Virus record (IMG/VR): IMGVR_UViG_3300022745_000048
Coordinates: 1-47,275 of that record
Direction: 5' to 3' (one strand)
Source: a virus
Length of the DNA stretch: 47,275 bases
Shown: one piece after another, positions 1 to 45,904 of the stretch
Layout: every line of letters starts with the position of its first letter
Position numbering within the stretch: the first letter of the stretch is position 1
Position numbers and translations under genes: made by a program
The notes under the pieces: generated by a model
What the model saw: the letters and a program-made list of their open reading frames with translations, nothing else
Told to the model about the DNA's origin: nothing
Database searches by the model: none

Positions 1-383
1 ACGTACAGTCGATTGATAACCTGAGCCTGTCCGGTTCGGCGTGGGTGTCCGATCAGGCGCAGGTGTTCGGTTCGGCGCAGGTGTCCGGTTCGGCGCAGGT
101 GTTCGGTTCGGCGCGGGTGTCCGGTTCGGCGTGGGTGTCCGGTTCGGCGCGGGTGTCCGGTTCGGCGTCAAAAACACCGCTCCATCTGACAGGACTCCGT
201 TGGCCCGTGACTATCGCTGACGACACGATGGCAATCGGCTGCCAATTCCACGCACTCAGCCAGTGGTGGCGGTTCAGTGATGCGCAGATCGCTGCGATGG
301 ACTCCGATGCACCCGAGTTTTGGGCAGTATATCGGACGGTGTTGCTGGATTTGTGCCGTGGGACTGGTCGGGAGTCGGAATGA
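1..383 (+). CDS. Left-handed beta-helix repeat phage protein (5' end cut by window)
   Basis: The reading frame is open to the left edge, so the gene starts outside the window; the GTG at 45 is internal to the repeat and not a credible start. The N-terminal part is eight hexapeptides of the type V-[SF]-G-S-A-[QRW], the pattern of left-handed parallel beta-helix (LbH) folds. The remaining ~70 residues, from position 171 on, contain the G-C-x-F-H, W-W-x-F-S-D and A-x-[MD]-x-x-x-A-x-E-F-W elements that follow such repeats in small phage proteins of unknown function. It is the first visible gene of the left operon and overlaps the next by 4 bp (ATGA). Function unknown; a structural or scaffold-like role is only inference. 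Confidence 0.75.
   Translation, partial: VQSIDNLSLSGSAWVSDQAQVFGSAQVSGSAQVFGSARVSGSAWVSGSARVSGSASKTPLHLTGLRWPVTIADDTMAIGCQFHALSQWWRFSDAQIAAMDSDAPEFWAVYRTVLLDLCRGTGRESE
27..170 (+). repeat. Eight 18-bp tandem repeats encoding hexapeptides
   Basis: Eight consecutive 18-bp units of the form gtgtccggttcggcgcag, with point variation (tcc/ttc, cag/cgg/tgg). Each keeps the reading frame and encodes one LbH hexapeptide rung. The low divergence suggests recent expansion by slippage or unequal recombination. Confidence 0.9.
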
Positions 384-3730: not shown

Positions 3731-3741
3731 CGTGACGATGA

Positions 3742-3758
3742 ATCACGTTATTGTTGAT
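3742..3758. promoter_or_regulatory. Operator-like palindrome, site 1 (ATCAC-N7-TTGAT)
   Basis: One of twelve WTCAC-N7-KTGAW elements in the window. It lies in the only sizeable gap of the first part of the left operon. The right half could serve as a -35 (TTGATT, 3754-3759), but the hexamer 17 bp later is poor. It supports the GTG at 3783 as the next gene's start. Confidence 0.6.
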
Positions 3759-3782
3759 TGTCGAATCGAAAGGGGAAATACC

Positions 3783-7067: not shown

Positions 7068-7237
7068 CAGCGGATGAACGGGGCGAATCTGTCGCCCACT
7101 GGCTCGAAACTCTGGCTGACGCGCACGACCACTTGGCGGAAACTGAGATGGGCGGCAACGAGGACCAGAACCGGATGATCGCCATCCACTATCGGGCACG
7201 CGCGACCGACATCCGGGCTGAAATGGACATCCTGTAA
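7064..7237 (+). CDS. Small hypothetical protein, 57 aa
   Basis: ATG 7064 overlaps the kinase stop (ATGA). Short acidic helical protein (V-A-H-W-L-E-T-L-A-D-A-H-D-H-L, then A-T-D-I-R-A-E-M). Its stop overlaps the start of the sigma-factor gene by one base, so it may be translationally coupled to it. Confidence 0.65.
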   Translation: MTADERGESVAHWLETLADAHDHLAETEMGGNEDQNRMIAIHYRARATDIRAEMDIL

Positions 7238-7725
7238 TGACTTTCGAAGAGGCATACCGGAAGCACCGAACTGGGATGCTCCGGTATGCCGGGCGCTGGT
7301 GTGAAGACCGTGGGATCGACCCGGAAGACGTGGTGCAGGATGCGTTTCTGATCGCGTGGCGGAAGTGGTCAGCAGCCGGGGAAAACGTGTTCTCGTGGCT
7401 GCTGGGGATCGCCCGGAATGCGTTCTACCACTTGCTGCGTGATGGCCTGCACAGGACGCGCGGCGGTCGGCCCACAGGGTTTGCCGTGGTCGAATGGAAT
7501 GCCGATGCTGACGAGCGCCAAACGCCTGCCACGCAGGAACTGACGGTGTGGCTCGATCAGTTGCGCCAGAAGTTCGAGACGTTGGGGCCGTCGCAGGCCG
7601 ATGCGCTCCGGGGTGTGTCCTGTGGGCTGTCCGTGGGCGATATTGCCGACCAGACGGGGCGCACGCCCGCCTCCGTGTCGATGGCCCTGACATTGGGCCG
7701 CAGAAGGCTGTTGACCATGGTGTGA
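7237..7725 (+). CDS. Phage-encoded ECF-like sigma-70 family factor
   Basis: 162 aa. N-terminal half matches sigma region 2 (R-Y-A-G-R-W-C-x(6)-P-E-D-V-V-Q-D-A-F-L-I-A-W-R, then F-S-W-L-L-G-I-A-R-N-A). The C-terminal half is a region-4 helix-turn-helix (L-G-P-S-Q-A-D-A-L-R-G...G-L-S-V-G-D-I-A-D-Q-T-G-R-T-P-A-S-V-S). Regions 1 and 3 are absent, as in ECF factors. It lies just upstream of the gapR operator. It would redirect host RNA polymerase to phage promoters, perhaps those of the late operon; targets are not known. Confidence 0.88.
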   Translation: MTFEEAYRKHRTGMLRYAGRWCEDRGIDPEDVVQDAFLIAWRKWSAAGENVFSWLLGIARNAFYHLLRDGLHRTRGGRPTGFAVVEWNADADERQTPATQELTVWLDQLRQKFETLGPSQADALRGVSCGLSVGDIADQTGRTPASVSMALTLGRRRLLTMV

Positions 7726-7742
7726 ATCACCGTATGGTTGAG
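7726..7742. promoter_or_regulatory. Operator-like palindrome, site 2 (ATCAC-N7-TTGAG)
   Basis: In the 43-bp gap between the sigma-factor gene and gapR. Matches the shared WTCAC-N7-KTGA element. No convincing -10 hexamer follows. Confidence 0.55.
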
Positions 7743-7768
7743 TCGTAACGTTTAAGGGGATTCGGAAG

Positions 7769-16878: not shown

Positions 16879-16943
16879 TGGGTCAGCAGCCACCAGAATA
16901 CCCCTGACAAGAGAACGCCCGCAGTACCGAGACGCGCAATCAC
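16875..16943 (-). CDS. Tiny membrane peptide in the tail-tip operon, 22 aa
   Basis: GTG start overlaps the stop of the upstream gene and its own stop overlaps the next GTG, so it sits in a GTGA/GTGA chain. Translation gives a single hydrophobic helix (L-G-T-A-G-V-L-L-S-G-V-F-W-W-L-L). Exact coupling on both sides argues that it is translated. Function unknown. Confidence 0.5.
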   Translation of the reverse strand: MIARLGTAGVLLSGVFWWLLTQ

Positions 16944-17176
16944 GATGCTTCGATCTCGTACGTGCGGATGGATTTGTCACAGAAATCGAGGACGTTGATG
17001 CCCTTGATCGTGACGCTCCCGAAGATCACGGGTATCTCTTTCCCCGCCTCCGCAGTCGGGTTATCTGCGTCCTTGGCCGAGTCAGGCTTGGGCTGCTTCG
17101 GCTTGGGCATAAGCAGATACGCCACGACGTTCAGGACGACGGCGACGAGAAGTGCGACGAGGAATTGGAACACCAT
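16940..17176 (-). CDS. Tail assembly protein with N-terminal membrane helix, 78 aa
   Basis: N-terminal hydrophobic helix (F-L-V-A-L-L-V-A-V-V-L-N-V-V-A-Y-L-L-M-P-K-P-K), then P-T-A-E-A-G-K-E-I-P-V-I-F-G-S-V-T-I-K-G-x-N-V-L-D-F-x-D-K-S. This layout is common in proteins immediately upstream of the tail-tip gene in alphaproteobacterial phages, where the C-terminal part resembles the start of gpJ-like proteins. Its start is 12 bp from operator site 4. No good ribosome site is visible. Confidence 0.75.
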   Translation of the reverse strand: MVFQFLVALLVAVVLNVVAYLLMPKPKQPKPDSAKDADNPTAEAGKEIPVIFGSVTIKGINVLDFCDKSIRTYEIEAS

Positions 17177-17187
17177 GGTGGTGACGT

Positions 17188-17227
17188 ATCACGAATCTGT
17201 TGACAAGGCCAGACTCGGTAGTATGTG
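17188..17227 (+). promoter_or_regulatory. Moron island 1 promoter with operator site 4
   Basis: ATCAC-N7-TTGAC operator (17188-17204) whose right half forms the -35 TTGACA (17200-17205); 16 bp later comes TATGTG (17222-17227). The block is near-identical to that at 21587-21626, including a shared leader up to the ribosome site. It drives the + strand genes 17260-17944 and lies between divergent genes. Confidence 0.75.
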
Positions 17228-17259
17228 TTGACGGAGTTTCAAGTCGAAGGGATTTTGCG

Positions 17260-17517
17260 ATGATTGATTATGTTCCGGGTCCGTCGCTCGACTGGACCAA
17301 GCCGATTGAGACGGTGCCGGATGTGCGGAATCCGGTGGCGATGCCGTGTAGGGTTGTCGGGGAGATTCCCCACGGGGAGTGGAAGGTGCATATTATCGGA
17401 AAATGGTTCCCGCACGGGGATTCACTGAATACCGTCTATGCGTGGGATTATTCGCCCGATGGTACTTCGAACTCGTGGCTGCCGGTGCTGCGGAATGTGG
17501 AGAATTGTGATGATTGA
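17260..17517 (+). CDS. Moron island 1 gene A, D-W-T-K-P-I-E protein, 85 aa
   Basis: ATG 17260 follows AAGGGA. The protein contains D-W-T-K-P-I-E, V-V-G-E-I and Y-A-W-D-Y-S-P-D-G-T-S motifs of small accessory phage proteins of unknown function. It is a partial paralogue of the next gene (both begin with an I-D...D-W-T-K-P-[IL]-E unit). Opposite in strand to the surrounding tail genes and with its own promoter: a moron-type insertion. Confidence 0.7.
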   Translation: MIDYVPGPSLDWTKPIETVPDVRNPVAMPCRVVGEIPHGEWKVHIIGKWFPHGDSLNTVYAWDYSPDGTSNSWLPVLRNVENCDD

Positions 17518-17944
17518 TTGGACCAAGCCGCTCGAACTGATGGATGGGACGCCGATGATATTGGACCCCACAGCCCTTCATAACCCTGATCTTATTACGG
17601 GCAATTACCATTTGATCCTAGAAAATTGGCAGACCCTTGATGGTGATCGACTGATTGTCCGCCCTGACGGCACTAGATGGAGTGGCCTTCGCCATGTCGT
17701 CATCGTCCGCAATCGCCCTGCTGAACCCGAGCCGCTCGCCAGCGTTAACACCATGGCGAAGGTTGAGGGATGGTCCACGGCCTTCACAAAAACCCTGCGC
17801 GACGAATTCGCCATGGCTGCGCTGACGGGGTTACTCGCTAACGCAGAGGCAGTGAATGCTGATAACTGGTCATACCGTACCGGAACACTAACGGGCGATG
17901 CCTTCATGTTTGCAGACAACATGCTCGCCGCTCGTGATCAATAA
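17510..17944 (+). CDS. Moron island 1 gene B, 144 aa
   Basis: ATG 17510 overlaps the previous gene by 8 bp. Residues 1-75 repeat the D-W-T-K-P-L-E and G-D-R-L-I-V-R-P-D-G-T-R theme of gene A. The C-terminal part (F-A-M-A-A-L-T-G-L-L-A-N...A-F-M-F-A-D-N-M-L-A-A-R) is a separate module widespread in small phage proteins, so the gene looks like a two-module fusion. It converges on the BR0599 gene with 7 bp of overlap. Confidence 0.7.
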   Translation: MIDWTKPLELMDGTPMILDPTALHNPDLITGNYHLILENWQTLDGDRLIVRPDGTRWSGLRHVVIVRNRPAEPEPLASVNTMAKVEGWSTAFTKTLRDEFAMAALTGLLANAEAVNADNWSYRTGTLTGDAFMFADNMLAARDQ

Positions 17945-18789
17945 TAGTTATTCACCAGCCCAATCGGGTTCTTGAACGGAATCCACGGCTGCCCACCGAA
18001 GTTCAGGATGTTCCCAAAGACCGGGCCGCAGTCACCGTCAGGTTGCGCTGCGATCCCGGCTTTGTGGTTGCACCCCGGCACCACAGACACGGTATGTCCA
18101 ACATACAGTTCACGCGGGATGTACGACAGCAACAGGGTGGTCCCATCACCTTCGACCCGTTTGATCGTGCGAACTTCTCTGTTGCCCGAGTCATTCGTCC
18201 ACTCGACCAGCCCGTCCAGATATTTCGCCGGATCGCGTGAGGTCCATCCAGCGGGCAGGGCAATCCGGCTTCCCGAGATCGCTGCCACAGTGGTCGATAC
18301 GGAGAACGCGGCTTTCGATGCCTTACAGTCCGGGCCGTACAGAACGAACGGGCAACCAAACTGATAGCGCCGCCGCAGCCCGTTCCGCTTCATCGACGTG
18401 GATATTGGCTCGCACGTCAGTTCGGCAGTCGTTTTCTTCCGTGAGCAGGACAGCACGCGGCCAGTCCAGACGACCTTGAATTCTCCGTCCGGGTCGTCGG
18501 CATGGCCACCCCAGACTTTCAGCGTCACGATGTCGGACGGCGGGGCTGCCAGAAATAGGTTAGCGATCTCGACGGTATGTGGAAAGCCCACCTGCATGGT
18601 CTTCTTGTCCATCGTCCCCGACTCCGTGATCTTGCCACGGTCGATGGGAATCGGAACAAAGGTTTCACCTGCCAACACCACGGCAAACTCATGGTCGGTG
18701 TAGCGGAATGCCAGTGTGCCGCAGGTGAACTTGTACAGGTTGATCGGAGCGCCGAGAGTGCGGCTGCCCTCATATGCGGCGTACGTCAT
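17938..18789 (-). CDS. BR0599-family (DUF2163-type) tail protein
   Basis: 283 aa. C-terminal G-C-N-H-K...C-G-P-V-F-G-N-I-L-N-F-G-G-Q-P-W-I-P is the diagnostic segment of this family; internal F-G-C-P-F-V-L-Y-G-P-D-C also matches. These proteins form part of the tail tip or baseplate between the distal tail and tip proteins. ATGA overlap with the 610-aa gene upstream. Confidence 0.85.
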   Translation of the reverse strand: MTYAAYEGSRTLGAPINLYKFTCGTLAFRYTDHEFAVVLAGETFVPIPIDRGKITESGTMDKKTMQVGFPHTVEIANLFLAAPPSDIVTLKVWGGHADDPDGEFKVVWTGRVLSCSRKKTTAELTCEPISTSMKRNGLRRRYQFGCPFVLYGPDCKASKAAFSVSTTVAAISGSRIALPAGWTSRDPAKYLDGLVEWTNDSGNREVRTIKRVEGDGTTLLLSYIPRELYVGHTVSVVPGCNHKAGIAAQPDGDCGPVFGNILNFGGQPWIPFKNPIGLVNNYY

Positions 18790-20618
18790 GCGATCTCCGG
18801 GTAACGGTCATTCACCAGATAGTCGAACCTATCGGGCGCATCGGTGAACATCAGGGGGCCAAACGCGAATTCGAAATTCACGAGGTCATCGAACCTGTCG
18901 ATGGTCGGGATGAACGCCTGCCCCCATGCCTCAAGGAACCACTGCGCCGCCTCGTCATATGTGGGGGCATTGCCTTCGGGTGTAAGGTCTTCCAGCGTCA
19001 TGATCGCTGGGCTGGTCTGCGCGATGCTGTCCGTCACCCACTCGATTGTCAGTTCATCGCTGGCAAACCGGCGCACGGGCATCCACGCAATGTCGATGAT
19101 CTCATCCGTGGAAATGTCGCTCAGGAACGCCTGCGAAAACTGGATGCCGGTATTTCCGCCTGACACGTACATCGACCGGATGCTGCGGTAGATCCGTCGC
19201 CCATCGACCGTGCGGATGCAGACCGCCCGATTCACCGTATCGTCGGCATAATCGTCATACGTGGCGGTCCCGGCCACGGTGATCGTGTCTGTGCCGACCG
19301 AGATGTTGTTCAGCGGGGTGAGATCCTGCTCGAACGTCGGCATATAGAATTCGCCGCGCTTGCCCTTGGCCCGGTCGAACATCCGCCGAATGTCGTCAGC
19401 CATGGTGGCCGAGCAGGAGAGATACGTGGCCTTCTGGGTCCGCGTAGCGAATGCGACAGGCCGGAACGTCTGGATGACCCCACGCCCGAAGTCCACCTGT
19501 TCGATCTGGCGGAACCAGTCGTTGCTGACGGTCTGCCCCCAGTTCGGACGCAGCGTGAACACCTCGCGCCCGTTGTGAAGGTCAATCGGCCATTCGAAAT
19601 CGGTGATGGGTTCAGACGCCGGGGTGACGTTGAAACTGATCTTCGCCTGTGCGACAGCGCTGGTCGGCGTCGTCACGGCCTGCGGGATCTTCATCAGACC
19701 CTCGATAGACGGGCGAATGGCCGTGCCGACTGGATAGGTGATGGTATCACCCGTGAACGCCACGGGATCGACAGCCGAGATGACCCGCTGCGCACCGTCG
19801 ATGATTACCGTTCGCCCGACTGCCAACCAGTCCGGGATTGAGTCTACCTCGACGCTTCCGTCAGACCGATTTTCCAGCACTGTGACGAACCGTGTCGGAT
19901 CAGCCATGATGATCGAGTTGCCCGACCACTTGGTCAGCAGCCGGTTCATCGCCCGATATTCGTCGCCTTCCAGCAGGATCGAGAAATCGAGCGTCTTGCG
20001 CGGCGTGATGCGCTGAGCGCGGCGTTGCTCCTTGCCCGACCGAGATGCCGTTACGTCGGTCTTGTAGGCATAGGTGATATCGACACTACCGGACCACGTT
20101 GGTTCGAACGGCCACAGCCGCGACCGCTGGCCCGTGACGGTCAGGGTGACAATCTGCCCGTTGTCTGCGTGGTACGTGACCGTGCCGTTAATGTCGGCAG
20201 GCCCGCTCTCCCCGACCTTCACGTTGTACGTCAGTGTGGACAGAGGGGGCATCACGGCAGGTGCAGAATGTCCGACCAGCGTGACCCCGGTAAGGCCGCT
20301 CTGCGCAATCGAGTCGATGGTCCGTGAAACTGTCCATGCCGACCACAGCACGGCCACCTTGGTCACGACGCCCGACACCGACCCATAGCGGAGGTGCGCA
20401 GGCAGCAGGTGGAAGCGGTTGTAGTAGTCCTCGAAGAACGATGCCGACCGTTGACCCGTCCGCGACAGCGAGCGGATGCTGATCGGCTGCGAACTGCCGA
20501 ACGTCCCGCCGAACGTCGCCAGCAGATCACGGGCAACCCATGTCTGTTGGGCAGACGGATGCACGACAGAGGGATGCCCTGCGTATTCCGTCGTCGGGAG
20601 GATATATCCGGTCGTCAT
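18786..20618 (-). CDS. Distal-tail / baseplate-like protein, 610 aa
   Basis: It lies between the tape measure region and the BR0599 gene. The segment F-D-R-A-K-G-K-R-G-E-F-Y-M-P-T-F-E-Q-D-L (about residue 414 on) resembles the G-K-R-G-x-F-W-x-P element of phage distal tail proteins, and much of the sequence is beta-rich. A second domain near residues 150-210 holds many V-x-V-x-G repeats. Role inferred from position: a hub linking tail tube and tip. Confidence 0.7.
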   Translation of the reverse strand: MTTGYILPTTEYAGHPSVVHPSAQQTWVARDLLATFGGTFGSSQPISIRSLSRTGQRSASFFEDYYNRFHLLPAHLRYGSVSGVVTKVAVLWSAWTVSRTIDSIAQSGLTGVTLVGHSAPAVMPPLSTLTYNVKVGESGPADINGTVTYHADNGQIVTLTVTGQRSRLWPFEPTWSGSVDITYAYKTDVTASRSGKEQRRAQRITPRKTLDFSILLEGDEYRAMNRLLTKWSGNSIIMADPTRFVTVLENRSDGSVEVDSIPDWLAVGRTVIIDGAQRVISAVDPVAFTGDTITYPVGTAIRPSIEGLMKIPQAVTTPTSAVAQAKISFNVTPASEPITDFEWPIDLHNGREVFTLRPNWGQTVSNDWFRQIEQVDFGRGVIQTFRPVAFATRTQKATYLSCSATMADDIRRMFDRAKGKRGEFYMPTFEQDLTPLNNISVGTDTITVAGTATYDDYADDTVNRAVCIRTVDGRRIYRSIRSMYVSGGNTGIQFSQAFLSDISTDEIIDIAWMPVRRFASDELTIEWVTDSIAQTSPAIMTLEDLTPEGNAPTYDEAAQWFLEAWGQAFIPTIDRFDDLVNFEFAFGPLMFTDAPDRFDYLVNDRYPEIA

Positions 20619-21574
20619 GCCCTACGGTAAGCGTAGCCGATCATGCCGCTCGACTCGTTGGACCCCCATGAGGCCCCGCGCGCGACAGACGTGGACGTGG
20701 ACTTTCGGAAGGCCGGGAAGCACTGCCACTCGTCCGTCCCGATGGTCAATGTGGAGTCGGGATCGAGGTCGGTCATGTTGACTAGACGGACGCCAGCGGG
20801 ATGGCCGAGTTGGGCGAACTGGACAGTCGAACCAGAACCCTTGGCCGCATACAGATTCACGGGCGTCAGTATCGCCGTGCCCGCGTAGCTGGACCGACCA
20901 CGGGCCACGTAGCCGTCGTTGACATCATCCGTGAAGCCGCCGATGGCCTCGTTGCCGTCGAATGCGTTCCATCCGCCGTACGACAGTGATGCCGCCCGGA
21001 AGCGCCGCCACGTATTCGGGTTGCTGCCGTGGACGATCCGGGTGCCGCCACAGTCGGCGTTCGCCCAATAGCTTTGGTGCGCGGAGAACAGATGCTGGTG
21101 GCGGGTATCCCGGTAGTCGAGCGGATAGTCGGTGCCCGCATTCGACTGGAAGAAGTTCGCCCCGGAAATTACCTCGCCGCCCGTGAAGGACGACGACGGC
21201 ACCAGATTGCCCATGTAGAGGTGGCGGTACAGGTTGTACCCGTATTCCACCACGATCACCATGTACGGCGCGGGGGTCAGCGCGGCGAACAGAATCACCT
21301 TTGTCGGGGCGAGCGTACCGCTGTCACGAACGGGCGACCGGAGCCGCGCAGTCCCGGTGATCGAGGACGTGTCGGTCTGAGTCCAGAACAGTTCGTCATA
21401 TGGGCTGACGTTCACGCGAGTCAGGCTGAACGTCGCACCGCCCGAGTAGGACGGGTGTTTGAGCGTGGGAGCCGAAGTCGTCCCGCCCACCGTAAAGCCG
21501 ACCGTAGTGGCGAAGGATCTCACGAGCGGGGGAATGTCACCCAGAGAGGTGATCGTGTTCTGCTGCCATGCCAT
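20615..21574 (-). CDS. Minor tail/virion protein, 319 aa
   Basis: Beta-rich protein with aromatic-rich segments (Y-M-V-I-V-V-E-Y-G-Y-N-L-Y-R-H-L-Y-M-G-N-L-V) and a C-terminal W-Q-C-F-P-A-F-R-K. Similar G-N-L/G-G-S and H-x-H-x-F elements occur in the protein at 22704-23696, so the two may be distant paralogues. No strong ribosome site; start is 13 bp from operator site 5. It is separated from its neighbour by moron island 2. Confidence 0.65.
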   Translation of the reverse strand: MAWQQNTITSLGDIPPLVRSFATTVGFTVGGTTSAPTLKHPSYSGGATFSLTRVNVSPYDELFWTQTDTSSITGTARLRSPVRDSGTLAPTKVILFAALTPAPYMVIVVEYGYNLYRHLYMGNLVPSSSFTGGEVISGANFFQSNAGTDYPLDYRDTRHQHLFSAHQSYWANADCGGTRIVHGSNPNTWRRFRAASLSYGGWNAFDGNEAIGGFTDDVNDGYVARGRSSYAGTAILTPVNLYAAKGSGSTVQFAQLGHPAGVRLVNMTDLDPDSTLTIGTDEWQCFPAFRKSTSTSVARGASWGSNESSGMIGYAYRRA

Positions 21575-21586
21575 GCCGCGTGGTGT

Positions 21587-21626
21587 ATCACTATTTGGTT
21601 GACAAGGCTAGGGTCGGCGGTATGTG
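21587..21626 (+). promoter_or_regulatory. Moron island 2 promoter with operator site 5
   Basis: ATCAC-N7-TTGAC operator (21587-21603); -35 TTGACA 21599-21604, 16-bp spacer, TATGTG at 21621-21626. Nearly the same as the block at 17188-17227, with the same downstream leader tgttga-ggagtttcaagt. Confidence 0.75.
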
Positions 21627-21659
21627 TTGATGGAGTTTCAAGTGAAAGGTGATTTTGTG

Positions 21660-21989
21660 ATGGCGAATATCAAAACATGGCTTACAGAAGATGTTGCTGC
21701 GGATGGCCAGACTTTGGAAGGCATCGTATTTGGGAGGCACTATAACGACTGGATTGACGACTATACCCCGCATCCCGCCGAAGACACTCTGGTAGAACCC
21801 GAGGTAGGGCTGGCAGTTCTGGATGAAGAATTCCACTGCGGTCACGGTGGTGCAGACTGCCGACCGATGTTCGCATGGACTGCTACGAAGGTCTATTTCA
21901 TCCATGAGTATGATGGGGCAACGACACTTGTGTGGGTTCCGCGCAACCCCACGTCCATCGCGCCTGAATTCGGAGGGCAGTGGAAATGA
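21660..21989 (+). CDS. Moron island 2 gene A, 109 aa
   Basis: ATG 21660 follows GAAAGGTGA. Soluble acidic protein with C-G-H-G-G-A-D-C (possible metal site), T-A-T-K-V-Y-F-I-H-E-Y-D-G and T-L-V-W-V-P-R-N-P motifs; unknown family of phage accessory proteins. First gene of a four-gene + strand island inside the - strand tail operon. Confidence 0.7.
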   Translation: MANIKTWLTEDVAADGQTLEGIVFGRHYNDWIDDYTPHPAEDTLVEPEVGLAVLDEEFHCGHGGADCRPMFAWTATKVYFIHEYDGATTLVWVPRNPTSIAPEFGGQWK

Positions 21990-22159
21990 TCTGTTTCCGC
22001 GACCGCACATATTGCGCGGCGCAGTGCGCGAACAAGGAATGCCCCGCCCGACTCACGGATGAGGCGCGCGAGGCTGCTGCGAAGTGGTGGAATGGCGCGG
22101 ATGCACCGATTGCACTGGCCGATATGTCCGATGCCTGCGGGGCGTATGTGAAATGCTGA
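21986..22159 (+). CDS. Moron island 2 gene B, small Cys-rich protein, 57 aa
   Basis: ATG 21986 overlaps the previous stop (ATGA). Has I-C-F-R-D-R-T-Y-C...C-A-N-K-E-C near the N-terminus and D-M-S-D-A-C...K-C at the end, a recurring phage small protein with six cysteines, probably zinc-binding. Function unknown. Confidence 0.75.
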   Translation: MICFRDRTYCAAQCANKECPARLTDEAREAAAKWWNGADAPIALADMSDACGAYVKC

Positions 22160-22365
22160 TCGTCACATTCCAAGGTGGCCCGATGCACGGCAAGGTTTCT
22201 GACGACCCCATCCTGAATACGGTGCGGTTCGCAGAGACTGCCCCGATATGCGTGACATCGAAGCCCCCGCCGCCATGGAACGCAGGGTTGCCGCGCGTCC
22301 GGCAGCACACCTATGTCAGATCGCCTGACGACAGGACGGTGTTTGTTTATCGGGGGAGCGACTGA
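22153..22365 (+). CDS. Moron island 2 gene C, 70 aa
   Basis: ATG 22153 overlaps the previous gene by 7 bp. F-Q-G-G-P-M-H-G-K near the N-terminus and H-T-Y-V-R...V-F-V-Y-R-G at the C-terminus match a short conserved phage protein (G-G-P-x-D-G type) of unknown role. Confidence 0.7.
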   Translation: MLIVTFQGGPMHGKVSDDPILNTVRFAETAPICVTSKPPPPWNAGLPRVRQHTYVRSPDDRTVFVYRGSD

Positions 22366-22366
22366 A

Positions 22367-22789
22367 ATGACCGAGTGTATCAATTGTCGAAATACGGCTG
22401 CCAAGGGTAGTTCTTATTGCCGCCCCTGCGAAGATGCGATGCTGGGTATTACTCGCCGCGATCAGCGCTTCTATGAGTTGGAGAGTGCTATCGATGAACT
22501 CGAAGATGCTGTCCCTGCCACTAAGGCAATCAAGATCCTGCGCAACCTTATGCGGGATTTGTCCGTAAAGGTTGTGGGGCGGGATCTCACTGAGATGCGG
22601 GAATCACTGGGTCGCAGGCACGAGATCGCTCGTGCGTTCTACTTTTCGACCGGCGATGCTGATTACCTGTCAGGTAATCACGGAGATCGTCGCTACTTTC
22701 CCATCAGCCCAACGCCAACGCCCAATAATTCCCAACCGAAGTCCGAAATGCATTCTGCACGACCAGATGGTTCACACCGCCTGCCGTGA
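22367..22789 (+). CDS. Moron island 2 gene D, N-terminal zinc knuckle, 140 aa
   Basis: ATG 22367, one base after the previous stop. N-terminal C-I-N-C-R...Y-C-R-P-C is a four-cysteine knuckle, followed by an amphipathic helical region. The last ~28 residues are proline/serine-rich and encoded wholly within DNA that is antisense to the 3' end of the converging tail gene. That tail was probably acquired when the island inserted and the original stop was lost. Confidence 0.65.
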   Translation: MTECINCRNTAAKGSSYCRPCEDAMLGITRRDQRFYELESAIDELEDAVPATKAIKILRNLMRDLSVKVVGRDLTEMRESLGRRHEIARAFYFSTGDADYLSGNHGDRRYFPISPTPTPNNSQPKSEMHSARPDGSHRLP

Positions 22790-23696
22790 TGATATTCTCA
22801 GACGAGTTCCCATTCCCCGGCACCCGATACACGCCATCAAGGATGCCGTACGTCTGGTCTGCCGGGGATTGCTGGGTGAGGGTGATCGGCATCAGGGCAT
22901 ATGAGCCATCGAACGACGGACCCATCCGCTGCCGAACAGAGTCGTAACCCCAGACGCCGTTCGCATCCGTGGTCCGGTTCACGCCCATGCCGTCACCGAA
23001 CGCTTCCGGGCCGATGAACACCTTGGGATTGCCCGGATCACTGCCGTTGTTCCAGCACCTGATCCACTGTCCGGTCGGGTCGAGCATCCATGCGGGCGAC
23101 TCGTTATTCACGGCATACCCGTAGAACGACGTATACGGGCTGACGAAGTGGGTGTGCCCGTCTGACGTGCTGCGCCAGTCCTGCCCGCCCGTCTGCACCT
23201 GACCCCGGCTGCCACCGATGAACATCGGATAGGCATATGTGGTCGGCGGGGCGTACGGCAGGAAGAACCCTGCATAGCACGATTCAAACACCGTCGAGAT
23301 TTTCACGACCACGGAGAACCTACGACCGCTGGCGACGAACCAATAGGTCATCGGATTGCTGTCGAGGTACATCGCCACGGGCGGGCTGGGCAATAGATGT
23401 TCAGAGATCGAGTTCGCCGTCAGCAGCGTGCCCGTCATCCCGGTCAACCACAGCTTGTAGCTGTCTGCGCCGATGTTCGAGTCGAGGCTCAGGCCGACGT
23501 AAATGTTGTCCGTCCCACCAGTACCGGGGCCTTTCAGCACGATGTCCGTGGTGTTCGGTGCGCCCGTGGGAGCAGTCCATGCAGTCGTCCACTGCTGCCC
23601 CGCAGCCACGAGCGTGGAGTTCATCGTGAGGAACGTCTTGAGGGCGGCGAACAGGGCAGCGGCGTTGCTGGCGGTTCCGGTGGCATATGCTGTCAT
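22704..23696 (-). CDS. Minor tail/virion protein, 330 aa
   Basis: First gene after the tape measure in the direction of transcription. N-terminal half (A-L-F-A-A-L-K-T-F-L-T-M-N...W-T-A-P-T-G) followed by a beta-rich region with Y-P-M-F-I-G-G-S-R-G and G-H-T-H-F-V-S-P. It may be a distant paralogue of the 319-aa protein. Its 3' end is overlapped by 86 bp of the opposing moron gene. Role in the virion inferred from position. Confidence 0.65.
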   Translation of the reverse strand: MTAYATGTASNAAALFAALKTFLTMNSTLVAAGQQWTTAWTAPTGAPNTTDIVLKGPGTGGTDNIYVGLSLDSNIGADSYKLWLTGMTGTLLTANSISEHLLPSPPVAMYLDSNPMTYWFVASGRRFSVVVKISTVFESCYAGFFLPYAPPTTYAYPMFIGGSRGQVQTGGQDWRSTSDGHTHFVSPYTSFYGYAVNNESPAWMLDPTGQWIRCWNNGSDPGNPKVFIGPEAFGDGMGVNRTTDANGVWGYDSVRQRMGPSFDGSYALMPITLTQQSPADQTYGILDGVYRVPGNGNSSENIITAGGVNHLVVQNAFRTSVGNYWALALG

Positions 23697-38723: not shown

Positions 38724-38821
38724 GACTGAAGCAGAGCCTTGAGCCGAAGCACGAGACTCAGCGGGAGTGAAACGGCCCGACGCGCGACATCACGCAGAGT
38801 CAGACTCACTGGGGTGGTCAT
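38720..38821 (-). CDS. Short paralogue (33 aa) of the 109-aa fibre-cassette protein
   Basis: ATG 38821 with AAAGGAGA upstream. Its first residues (V-S-L-T-L-R-D-V-A-R-R-A) match those of the 42166 gene (A-S-L-T-L-R-D-I-A-L-R-D-A), and the ~60 bp upstream of both genes are clearly homologous. The rest was lost, leaving a short coupled leader ending in GTGA. It may be a decayed remnant or may still serve to start translation of the following gene. Confidence 0.65.
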   Translation of the reverse strand: MTTPVSLTLRDVARRAVSLPLSLVLRLKALLQS

Positions 38822-38842
38822 CGAACAATCTCCTTTCGTCGG

Positions 38843-38871
38843 GACATATCACGAATACCGTGATTATCCAA
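38843..38871 (-). promoter_or_regulatory. Promoter with operator site 9
   Basis: - strand TTGGAT (38871-38866), 17-bp spacer, TATGTC (38848-38843). The perfect palindrome ATCAC-N7-GTGAT (38848-38864) fills the spacer. Same geometry, 27 bp from the start codon, as at 42188-42216. Confidence 0.7.
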
Positions 38872-40407
38872 TCAATAGGCCAGCGCCATGAGACGCAGGT
38901 GATCCCCGGCAATCGGGGCGGCGATAGCGCCTGCTGCATCGTAAATCGCCATGACTGCCGTAGTGGCTGTCCCGCCGATCTGCTTGAGCATGTACACCGT
39001 TGCCGACTGCGTGGTGATGTCGCTGCCGGTGACAACCCAGCCATTCGTTGCGGCTGTGCCGAACGTGACGGTAAACGATGCTGCGGCAGGCGACGTGCCG
39101 ACCGTAATATCCATTGCAGCCGTGCCGTTGTTCGAAACGGTTGGACCAGTGCCGAGGCCAGTGCCGCTCACAGCCACGGTATAGTTTGCCATGGCGACTT
39201 TGCCGCCCGTCAGGAGCAGCGACGTTGGTGCCATGCGGACATCGTTCTGTCCGCGCTCCACTGTACCCCAGAACTGCGTTCCGAGTGTCTGGTTCATGTC
39301 GATGCCGGACGGATGCCCCGAGTACGTACCTGTGGTGCGGTACTTGGTAGGGTCATCGAACATCGGGGTGCCCGCCGTATGCGGATAGCCCATGCGCGCG
39401 TTGAACCCCTGAAGGATTGCATTGCCCGTCACATTGCCCGTGCGAGTGAAACAGGCCGTATATGCCTGCGAGTTATTTTCAATCCACGTCAGACCATAGA
39501 TATTCGGCGTGCTGCTTGCGGGGCCGTCAAGCGTGATGGCATAGGCCATCCGGTTGTAGTCCTCGAAGTGCAGATCCAGATACAGATCGGTCGTGGGATA
39601 CGAGCCGCTGGACCACAGGGTCAGCCCGGTCCCAACGCCTGATGCGCCGCCGCCAGCAACCGTTGCCCATGAGGCAATGAACCGATGGCGTGAGGTGCAG
39701 CCCATCCAGATGGCGCTGTTCGGCGCACTCGAAATGATGGTTGCACCGATGAAAGTGTTTTCGTTGAAACTGGCGACGGTATCGACAGCCGCCGTCACCG
39801 CGATGAACGCGCTCGTGACGCCCCAGTGATTCAGGCCGTCCTGAATCAGAGCATATCCGCTTCCGCCCACGGCGAGGTTCTGAATGTACGGATGGTCAAA
39901 CGTACACGTCTCGCTGGCGAAGTTATAGAGCGCCGTTCTGGTGAAGTACCCCCGGATCGTCAGGCCGACGAAAAGGTGCTGATCACAGACGGGGATGTCA
40001 TTGCGACCAATCTGCATACCAACATCGGGGCGGGTACTCTGCACCGTCTGTTCCAGATGCAGGTTATACACCTTGAGGGAGCGCGAACCGAGGAAGTCGA
40101 TGGCCACACCACTCGCCATGTGGGCGTCGATCACCGCACCGTCACAGATGATGGTGCCGCCTTCGGCACGAATGCCGGTGAAGTCCAATCCCGAGGTCGT
40201 CTTGTACGTGCCCTTGGGGAAGTACAGCGTGGAAGGCAGCGTCAGATACCCCGTGGGGGACGTATAGATAGTTGCCTTCCACGCTGCGATGGCCGCGTTG
40301 ATCGCAGCCGTATCGTCCGTGGTGCCGTTGCCAGCAGCACCATAGGACTTTACGTTGATCGACGTGCTGCGCCCGACTGCCAGCTTGCGGGATTTTGCGT
40401 CCTTCAT
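38872..40407 (-). CDS. Tailspike, pectate-lyase-superfamily beta-helix
   Basis: 511 aa. After an M-K-D-A-K-S-R-K-L-A peptide comes V-K-S-Y-G-A-A-G-N-G-T-T-D-D-T-A-A-I-N-A-A-I, the hallmark of the right-handed beta-helix pectate-lyase-3 superfamily, and L-Y-F-P-K-G-T-Y. Such spikes bind and often cut surface polysaccharide. A Gly/Thr-rich C-terminal module (residues ~400-511) may trimerise it. No specific catalytic pair can be named. Confidence 0.82.
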   Translation of the reverse strand: MKDAKSRKLAVGRSTSINVKSYGAAGNGTTDDTAAINAAIAAWKATIYTSPTGYLTLPSTLYFPKGTYKTTSGLDFTGIRAEGGTIICDGAVIDAHMASGVAIDFLGSRSLKVYNLHLEQTVQSTRPDVGMQIGRNDIPVCDQHLFVGLTIRGYFTRTALYNFASETCTFDHPYIQNLAVGGSGYALIQDGLNHWGVTSAFIAVTAAVDTVASFNENTFIGATIISSAPNSAIWMGCTSRHRFIASWATVAGGGASGVGTGLTLWSSGSYPTTDLYLDLHFEDYNRMAYAITLDGPASSTPNIYGLTWIENNSQAYTACFTRTGNVTGNAILQGFNARMGYPHTAGTPMFDDPTKYRTTGTYSGHPSGIDMNQTLGTQFWGTVERGQNDVRMAPTSLLLTGGKVAMANYTVAVSGTGLGTGPTVSNNGTAAMDITVGTSPAAASFTVTFGTAATNGWVVTGSDITTQSATVYMLKQIGGTATTAVMAIYDAAGAIAAPIAGDHLRLMALAY

Positions 40408-40408
40408 A

Positions 40409-41833
40409 TCAGTACGTCGTGACCGTACCTGCGCCGGTCAGCGTACTGCGGGGCGGCGGGGCATTACGATAATAGATCGTGGCAGTCGCGCTCGCGTTGT
40501 AGACCATACCAGTGGCGGGCATGTCGTACACCGGGCTGTCGATCCAGTATTTCGCCGTGTCGTTGGCTACCCACGCCGCAGGCCACTGCGCGCCGCCCTG
40601 CGTCAGATCGCCCTGATCGTCGCGGACGATGGGATTGACGAACCAAGACAGCGTTGTGTTGATCGACCGGAATGTGCCGCCACGGTTGTTGCGGTAGATG
40701 CCAGCCACGTCCAGACCTACGCAATCCTCGTGGCTGGTCCAGCCATTGTTGGACGTGCTGGGGGCGCGCCCGTTGTCATAGGCCGTGCAGTTGACCGTGA
40801 CCATGTGCGACTTGGCACCAGTCACAGACGAGCGGTGAATATTGAATCCATCCGAATAGTTGGCGTCTGCCTCGCATTCGAAGAACGCCGCAACGCCGTG
40901 AAGATTATCAATCTTCACCCCCGCCGCGCCGGTATCGTTGACGCCGCCCGCATACTGGAATGTGCATTTGTTCGCCAAGACGATCTTGAACGAGGATGCG
41001 AGGCTCGGGGCAGAATAGTTCAGGCACGCCGACGTGTTGCCGCCCTCGAACGCCCACATGGACGACGCATCGGCCACGGAGAAGCCGATGTTGATATTGG
41101 CAGTGATCTTGGCGTTGCCCGTGGACGACCGATAGTAACGGGTATTGGCGTTCGTGACCAGAACACCATCGGCCCGGTTAATGTAGAGTTTCGTGCCGTC
41201 GTAGTGCCAACTGTTCGGCGTGCGATTGCAGATCGCTGGCGATGACACGTTCATCAGGTCGAGCATGTTGCCGTAGCGGTCGCTGGCCAACCGATCCACG
41301 ACGCGGTTGATATTGCTCGTGGCAACAGAATAGGTGTTCGTGTACGTCGCGTCAGCCGTCAGGTTGGCGAAATCGTCCCAAGTGCCTGTGACGACTCGCC
41401 CAGCACTGGCGACGAAGAAGCAATCCTGCGTTGGGAAAACGCTATTGCCGTTGCTGATATTGTTGGCACGCGGGTAACTGCCCGCCGCCACGATCACCTT
41501 GAACGGCGCACCGGATGCATTGCCCAGCGTGACACAGGCATGGATCGACTTCTTCGCGGTGCCCGCCGTCAGCCCGTTGCCGGTGTCGTCAGCCTTGGCG
41601 GCATCCGCATAGTACGTATTGGCTGGGGCCGAACGCGCGGTGCTGAACAGATCGAACAGCGCATCTGCCGTAATGCCCACCGAACCGTACGGAGCCATGC
41701 TATCCCGATGGACATACGGAGCCGGGGTCCACGTCGTGCAGGCCCATGCTGCCGACCATGCAGTCGGGGCAGGCGGATAATACCGGGCATAGGTGACACG
41801 TCCGGCCAGCTTGCGGGATTTGGTGTCCTTCAT
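40409..41833 (-). CDS. Second tailspike-type beta-helix protein
   Basis: 474 aa. Starts with M-K-D-T-K-S-R-K-L-A, the same leading peptide as the other spike. Y-Y-A-D-A-A-K-A-D-D-T-G-N-G-L-T-A-G-T-A precedes a parallel beta-helix with S-D-G-F-N-I-H and D-N-G...W-T-S-H-E-D-C-V-G-L-D, typical of right-handed beta-helix repeats. The two spikes are adjacent (one base apart) and may form a branched or alternative adsorption apparatus. Confidence 0.8.
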   Translation of the reverse strand: MKDTKSRKLAGRVTYARYYPPAPTAWSAAWACTTWTPAPYVHRDSMAPYGSVGITADALFDLFSTARSAPANTYYADAAKADDTGNGLTAGTAKKSIHACVTLGNASGAPFKVIVAAGSYPRANNISNGNSVFPTQDCFFVASAGRVVTGTWDDFANLTADATYTNTYSVATSNINRVVDRLASDRYGNMLDLMNVSSPAICNRTPNSWHYDGTKLYINRADGVLVTNANTRYYRSSTGNAKITANINIGFSVADASSMWAFEGGNTSACLNYSAPSLASSFKIVLANKCTFQYAGGVNDTGAAGVKIDNLHGVAAFFECEADANYSDGFNIHRSSVTGAKSHMVTVNCTAYDNGRAPSTSNNGWTSHEDCVGLDVAGIYRNNRGGTFRSINTTLSWFVNPIVRDDQGDLTQGGAQWPAAWVANDTAKYWIDSPVYDMPATGMVYNASATATIYYRNAPPPRSTLTGAGTVTTY

Positions 41834-41836
41834 CGG

Positions 41837-42166
41837 TCAGAAACCCCCGCGCACGGTGACATCGGCAGAGAACGTCAGATAGGCACTGCCATCGACCGAC
41901 CAGATGCCCGGAGTCCCCGCAATGTTGCTATCAGTGCCACTGCCATATGCGCCCTTGGAGTCAAGGACAGGCCAGTTGACATAGGGCTGAATTCCGTCGA
42001 GCGACCGGGTAACAGTCACAGTCCCGGTGGTGAACTGGAACTCCACGTCACCCAGTAGGCGGGCATCGAACGGAGTGTTCGCAGGCCACGTCGAAGCAAG
42101 GGCAACACGCAGAGCGGCGTCACGGAGGGCAATATCACGCAGAGTCAGGCTGGCGGGACCGGGCAT
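41837..42166 (-). CDS. Fibre-cassette first protein, 109 aa
   Basis: AAAGGAGA lies before the ATG. N-terminal helix (L-T-L-R-D-I-A-L-R-D-A-A-L-R-V-A-L) followed by a beta-rich part with R-L-L-G-D-V-E-F and G-S-A-Y-L-T-F-S-A-D-V. First gene of the spike cassette. Its N-terminus and promoter are duplicated at 38821. Confidence 0.65.
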   Translation of the reverse strand: MPGPASLTLRDIALRDAALRVALASTWPANTPFDARLLGDVEFQFTTGTVTVTRSLDGIQPYVNWPVLDSKGAYGSGTDSNIAGTPGIWSVDGSAYLTFSADVTVRGGF

Positions 42167-42187
42167 CGAAGGTTCTCCTTTCGACGG

Positions 42188-42216
42188 GCTATATCACGAA
42201 AAAAGTGATTATCCAA
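42188..42216 (-). promoter_or_regulatory. Promoter with operator site 10
   Basis: - strand TTGGAT (42216-42211), 17-bp spacer, TATAGC (42193-42188), with ATCAC-N7-GTGAT (42193-42209) in the spacer. The -35 overlaps the last codons of the terminase gene. It drives the spike cassette. Confidence 0.72.
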
Positions 42217-45815: not shown

Positions 45816-45844
45816 AAGTTAAATCACCTTTTTGTTGAATGCAA
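45816..45844 (-). promoter_or_regulatory. AlpA/late operon promoter with operator site 11
   Basis: - strand TTGCAT (45844-45839), 17-bp spacer, TAACTT (45821-45816). The ATCAC-N7-TTGAA element (45823-45839) fills the spacer, as at sites 9 and 10. Main candidate promoter for packaging genes. Confidence 0.7.
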
Positions 45845-45863
45845 GGGGGTGTTCGGTGGCTGT

Positions 45864-45904
45864 TTCACGTTTTTGTTGACACGACTCGGACAGTTAGGTT
45901 AATC
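45864..45904 (+). promoter_or_regulatory. Operator site 12 with + strand -35/-10 pair
   Basis: TTCAC-N7-TTGAC (45864-45880). TTGACA (45876-45881) and TTAATC (45899-45904) are 17 bp apart. No + strand gene is credible downstream, so it may make an antisense transcript across int or simply be a second operator near site 11. Confidence 0.5.

Follow-up and report, generated by a model that had tools for sequence, protein, structure and literature searches.

The stretch of viral DNA analyzed here (IMG/VR virus record IMGVR_UViG_3300022745_000048; 47,275 bp, the whole of which is called the window below) encodes an integrase, a GpA-type terminase, a lambda-type portal, an S49 protease, and an E-type capsid, and the phage is presumably a temperate, integrase-bearing siphovirus. 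Early genes occupy the + strand up to ~9.3 kb and late genes lie on the − strand, where the tail operon is interrupted by two islands of + strand genes: island 1 with two genes (iA-iB, 17260-17944) between T4 and Tm, and island 2 with four genes (iC-iF, 21660-22789) between T1 and T2 (T1-T6, Tm, and Tn are gene names coined in this analysis). The − strand genes flanking the islands were identified as tail or structural genes using PHROGs and Pfam, and T1-T4 were assigned to structural or tail assembly functions by PHROGs. These two islands had been pointed out in an earlier reading made from the sequence only, which counted their genes correctly, and all six open reading frames (ORFs) scored as coding, with the + frame above every other frame across the same interval. 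Neighboring island genes have start and stop codons that overlap or nearly do so.

Each island is preceded by a promoter-leader block (Table 1). The two blocks were 80% identical in a repeat search of the window (BLAST E ~1e-12), and 52 of the 64 positions in their core were the same, compared with 32/64 for the next-best 64-mer on either strand of the window; the shared homology described by the sequence-only reading is thus clear, although its wording that the blocks are almost identical was too strong. The homology spans from beside the start codon of the tail gene on one side (Tm, 17176; T2, 21574) to the start of the first island gene on the other (17260 and 21660, respectively), and includes a TTGACA hexamer and a leader, with no clear −10 element. 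In agreement with the same reading, the genes behind the two blocks were unrelated between the islands, the sole likeness among the cargo being a weak N-terminal similarity of iA and iB inside island 1. No terminator stem-loop was found near the blocks. A sense-strand promoter serving the tail genes was also considered and rejected, as by eye no usual hexamer spacing fits.

The nearest relative found was a 7.3-kb contig (IMGVR_UViG_3300050196_000104; L006/L080), whose T1 and T2 had 78% amino acid identity to those of the window, and further relatives were gathered by a scan with the 19-mer core TATCACKAWTYNGTTGACA. The two blocks carried by L006/L080 matched each other at 62/64 positions (97%) and had 75-84% identity to the window blocks (84% and 81% for block 1). 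One of them stood at the T2 site, which is the site of island 2 in the window, with six different genes behind it (one of them a glutaredoxin), and the other at the T1 site; the window has no island there, its tape-measure gene and T1 being only ~15 bp apart. The T1-T2-T3-T4-Tm junctions in the tail loci of most other relatives were short and island-free; for example, at ~37-47% identity, T1-T2-T3-T4 were contiguous in L003 and T4-Tm in L004. In a more distant relative (G001; L007, 53 kb), islands were detected before T3 and Tm, while about six genes before T1 in G005 (L104) and two genes before Tm in G007 (L088/L101) were found behind the core. The first gene of the T3-site island in G001 was homologous to the first gene of the T1-site island in G005 (34%, E 1e-9), and therefore the same block-plus-gene unit appears to be present at different sites; the remaining cargo was unrelated from genome to genome. 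Overall, at least seven contigs had homologous blocks or cores, which occupied several sites and had differing cargo. These comparisons bear out the earlier proposal that the promoter-operator block is the shared part and that cargo is swapped behind it, and the same genes are not always present and co-linear, as L006/L080 differs and most other relatives are island-free.

The core of each block is a 19-bp operator-like dyad, TATCAC-N7-TTGACA (symmetric form TNTCAC-N7-KTGANA), which overlaps the −35-like hexamer; its TATCAC half-site may resemble the lambda operator. The 19-mer of block 2 recurs identically in G001, G004, and G006. When TCAC-Nk-[GT]TGA was tallied for k = 0 to 20, the window held 19 sites at k = 7 (other spacings: mean 1.75, maximum 5), and similarly G001 held 22 (other spacings: mean 1.9, maximum 7). 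By a hand-made gene map, 12 of the 19 window dyads were intergenic though intergenic DNA makes up 4.3% (P ~1.6e-12), and the reversed-sequence control had one dyad site, none of them intergenic. Dyads of the late region occur on either strand and are partly palindromic, and a second duplicated stretch (99 nt, 76% identical; 38773-38871 and 42118-42216) lies upstream of a − strand late gene in each case, with a palindromic dyad and a ribosome-binding site inside. In G001, the start codons of ordinary genes (34165, 35244, and 35739), of the AlpA gene (52039), and of a small helix-turn-helix (HTH) gene (39459) lie 48-56 nt downstream of the asymmetric form TCAC-N7-TTGA, which is oriented toward them, and two early blocks (34215 and 35294; L094 14215 and 15294) are long duplicated promoter-leader blocks before two unrelated genes. 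The operator-to-start gaps in the same orientation were 54 and 55 nt for the window islands, 52 nt for a G001 island, and 48, 49, 49, 54, and 56 nt for ordinary G001 genes. The 19-mer had no occurrence in 398 Pseudomonadota genomes, and therefore no host was assigned. As for the wider block, a stringent pattern found no match in IMG/VR and a 60-nt consensus found none in the phage records searched, while a looser pattern in IMG/VR was rejected, having matched L077 alone, an unrelated contig.

Table 1. Positions in the window of the blocks, dyads, island genes, and flanking tail genes
Feature	Position	Strand	Remarks
Dyad AATCACGTTATTGTTGATT	3741..3759	+	Upstream of early + strand ORF (start 3783)
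Dyad AATCACCGTATGGTTGAGT	7725..7743	+	Upstream of early + strand ORF (start 7769)
Tm, small tail-operon gene	16940..17176	−	Start codon abuts block 1; tblastn homologues in most relatives
Promoter-leader block 1	17181..17250	+	Leads up to iA start codon; ribosome-binding site region 17245-17259
Operator-like 19-mer TATCACGAATCTGTTGACA, block 1	17187..17205	+	Overlaps −35-like TTGACA; matches pattern with 0 mismatches; 10 nt from Tm start, 54 nt from iA
iA, island 1, 85 aa	17260..17517	+	N-terminal DWTKPIE motif; best coding score in this frame; no Pfam or PHROG match
iB, island 1, 144 aa	17510..17944	+	C-terminal domain phrog_2201 / phrog_20565 / phrog_30599; 3' end 7 bp into T4
T4, tail assembly gene	17938..18789	−	phrog_778; Phage_BR0599
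T3, tail assembly gene	18786..20618	−	phrog_1082
T2, structural gene	20615..21574	−	phrog_687; start codon abuts block 2
Promoter-leader block 2	21580..21649	+	Leads up to iC start codon
Operator-like 19-mer TATCACTATTTGGTTGACA, block 2	21586..21604	+	Overlaps −35-like TTGACA; 11 nt from T2 start, 55 nt from iC
iC, island 2, 109 aa	21660..21989	+	phrog_21631
iD, island 2, 57 aa	21986..22159	+	phrog_23031; six Cys
iE, island 2, 70 aa	22153..22365	+	Weak phrog_1619 match
iF, island 2, 140 aa	22367..22789	+	CINC-N11-CRPC zinc-knuckle-like N-terminus (two CxxC pairs); 3' end 86 bp into T1
T1, structural gene	22704..23696	−	phrog_687
Dyad TATCACGACTCGCGTGAAA	36225..36243		11 nt upstream of small − strand gene preceding portal; without cargo
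Palindromic dyad TATCACGAATACCGTGATT	38847..38865		Upstream of − strand late gene (start 38723)
Palindromic dyad TATCACGAAAAAAGTGATT	42192..42210		Upstream of − strand late gene (start 42166)
Two dyads (45822, 45863)	45822..45881		Upstream of AlpA-family gene

Taken together, we consider it probable, with some room for doubt, that the islands are displaced, operator-controlled early-gene cassettes that lie antisense in the late tail operon and whose cargo is exchanged behind a conserved regulatory block. What can be seen directly in the sequences is the homology of the blocks, the replacement of cargo and its presence or absence between relatives, the dispersal of the dyads in two genomes, and the common operator-to-start spacing. 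Each cassette would consist of the regulatory block (the 19-bp dyad over the −35, a leader of ~50 nt, and a ribosome-binding site) and one to six interchangeable small early-type genes, and would fill, in antisense orientation, the gap between a pair of late tail genes, reaching from the stop codon of the upstream gene to ~10 nt before the start codon of the downstream one. Mechanistically, the block would act as a promoter and the dyad as the binding site of a phage regulator, so that the cargo would be expressed together with the early genes upon infection or induction and kept low in the lysogen, and late antisense read-through from the tail operon may later limit its expression.

The islands had previously been interpreted as morons, and in their classical form such islands would have independent transcription while the prophage is repressed and would help the lysogen through exclusion or conversion. 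Several features of the locus are consistent with this, as each island has its own upstream block, lies among the late genes of an integrase-bearing phage, and is present or absent in relatives, where the short island-free junctions indicate that these are extra genes between neighbors that are otherwise adjacent; the GC content (54.8% and 55.8%) is also below that of the window (60.1%), a difference in base composition of the kind that marks morons. However, the dyads in the blocks are members of a set that is found throughout the genome, upstream of early genes as well, which suggests control shared with lytic genes, and neither a terminator nor a membrane or defense-type protein was found. 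None of the six island proteins scored above the Pfam cut-off, no PADLOC defense family was detected among them, and no membrane segment was predicted in iA-iF (no 19-residue stretch had a mean hydropathy >0.94). PHROG matches of iB-iE were to small families, nearly all without a function, one iB match being named “transcriptional regulator”, and hence the suggested roles in superinfection exclusion or host takeover found no backing. As for the suggestion that several of the proteins have Cys knuckles, two of them, iF and iD, are Cys-rich. Because the operator is found genome-wide and resembles the early promoters of the phage, we prefer early-regulon cassettes over lysogen-expressed morons, which appear rather unlikely here, while the islands being accessory insertions in the tail operon stands.

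As for the wider occurrence of the cargo, a tblastn search of phage records returned no match for iF and just two weak matches for iB, both to its C-terminal part. The last gene of the L006 island was considered as cargo shared with iF and rejected, since the similarity comes at least partly from the overlap with the conserved 3' end of T1. The two genes on either side of island 2, T1 and T2, resemble paralogues, because both match phrog_687.

Several observations weigh against early-gene cassettes. Conservation of the −10 element is limited (the window has TATGTG, L080 has TATTGG, and the match is poor in G005 and G007), a consensus promoter scan did not report either block, and no terminator closing either island was found in the window, where the lone + strand candidate sits within iF. 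The intergenic enrichment of the dyads depends on the gene map, of which their excess over other spacings is independent. In G004 and G006, the core is found before Tm with only 65-68 bp and no cargo, and such a cargo-free operator may act on behalf of the tail gene or simply be a remnant. Finally, the operator was 10-11 nt from the start codon of a tail gene at nearly every site measured, cargo-free sites included, and this fixed distance suggests a role on the sense strand as well.

The last point leads to an explanation that we regard as unlikely, namely that the 19-mer serves the downstream tail gene, either as a roadblock or stoperator-like site or as a leader translation element, and that cargo merely arrived beside it. 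Besides the constant position of the operator, which extends to the cargo-free sites of G004, G006, and the window (36225), an ordinary ribosome-binding site occupies the same place in other relatives. Service to the tail gene does not, however, account for conservation that continues ~45 nt past the operator towards the cargo, in DNA without a role for the tail gene, and in the early region of G001 the element faces genes on its TTGA side at ~50 nt, while the other side mostly lacks a start codon. A single local duplication of one island in the window phage, followed by gene loss and replacement and without any general cassette behavior, would explain two blocks of 80% identity in one genome but is very improbable, given the spread of homologous blocks or cores with different cargo over several sites of those seven or more contigs and given that block 1 resembles the nearer of the L080 blocks more than it does block 2.

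For the phage regulator that would bind the dyads, a small HTH-like protein is a candidate (repressor or Cro-like) in G001 and G004. In G001, this 109-aa protein (L094 19133-19459) adjoins two back-to-back dyads (39516 and 39538), and its G004 homologue (L105 1492-1869; 41%, E 7e-15) has the same dyad pair, 23 bp apart; weaker homologues were found in G009, G011, and G012. Both its putative HTH identity and its predicted binding to the dyads are inferred from position and sequence pattern, and the protein had no PHROG match. A profile search did not find a homologue in the window, a record that may be incomplete, and this also counts against the cassettes. The window encodes a sigma-70 family protein (Sigma70_r2, 162 aa; 7237-7725, +), which was considered as a common activator; among 10 motif-bearing or related records, a homologue (39%) was found only in G007, and the sigma factor was therefore set aside.

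A few further features of these genomes were recorded. At ~1553 in L097 (G004) and ~2148 in L100 (G007), the operator and TTGACA-N17-TAGATA/TAGGTA are located between two terminator-like hairpins ~130 nt apart, possibly a small RNA gene. In the window, two adjacent − strand genes (38872-40407 and 40409-41833) have a common N-terminus, MKDxKSRKLA (29-nt repeat D10), and the product of the − strand gene at 9514-11097 matches phrog_1745 (“DNA transfer protein”), has a weak HTH at its N-terminus, and is 54% identical to a counterpart in G001. The left end of the window (10-185) has 18-nt tandem repeats (D1) that could encode a hexapeptide-repeat stretch.

Early-gene cassettes of this kind can be compared with the known systems that come closest in how they work. 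The mobile regulatory cassettes of T4-like phages known as PeSL (promoter early stem-loop; Arbiol 2010 and Comeau 2014, as cited in PMC4503421) are, as far as that citing account describes them, likewise repeated early-promoter elements beside exchangeable small genes and tied to the shuffling of non-structural genes between relatives, although early activity is only predicted for the window block. Unlike PeSLs as presented there, the window block has no terminator stem-loop and carries a dyad operator, and the window cassettes are antisense in the tail operon of an integrase-bearing siphovirus, whereas PeSLs lie in hyperplastic regions. Morons of lambdoid and Mu-like phages, as defined in PMC4378225, are similar in being extra genes with their own upstream signal and differing base composition between genes that are adjacent in relatives, but the window islands are multi-gene, lack a terminator, and have a block common to both with a predicted operator shared with early genes. 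In Cluster K mycobacteriophages, SAS are confined to the non-structural half of the genome, at a distance of 3-7 nt from the gene start that they serve, and ESAS include inverted repeats presumed to be bound by protein (PMC3203893). Like the dyads, these are short repeats scattered through a phage genome by start codons and associated with unrelated genes, while the asymmetric window dyads mostly face a start ~50 nt away and also occur in the late operon. The stoperators found in mycobacteriophage L5 and Cluster A, which are asymmetric, 13 bp long, and recognized by a monomeric repressor (PMC9283540), are comparable in that >10 sites are spread across short intergenic gaps throughout a temperate phage genome, but the window site is a 19-bp dyad, partly palindromic and on either strand in the late region. 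We did not file the cassettes under PeSL, morons, or stoperators, because they fail one defining feature of each (the terminator for the first two, and the 13-bp asymmetric site for the third).

How temperate phages gain accessory genes, at once suitably regulated, inside packed structural operons is largely unexplained, and the mechanism by which morons are acquired was called mysterious in a study of Mu-like phages (PMC4378225). Here the conserved part is the regulatory block and not the cargo, and the block is one of a scattered set of operators, with 19 and 22 sites in the two genomes, the size of which makes a direct test of the binding protein and of the responding sites possible. Being short, the block can also be used in sequence searches as a signature of accessory genes in this uncultured phage group. 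More tentatively, and with low confidence, we hypothesize that the block is a capture platform, in that late-gene junctions would gain a block 10-11 nt before the tail-gene start, and early-type cargo behind it would be swapped by recombination between homologous blocks. If so, accessory genes would be subject to the early control of the phage itself from their entry into the otherwise compact late operon.

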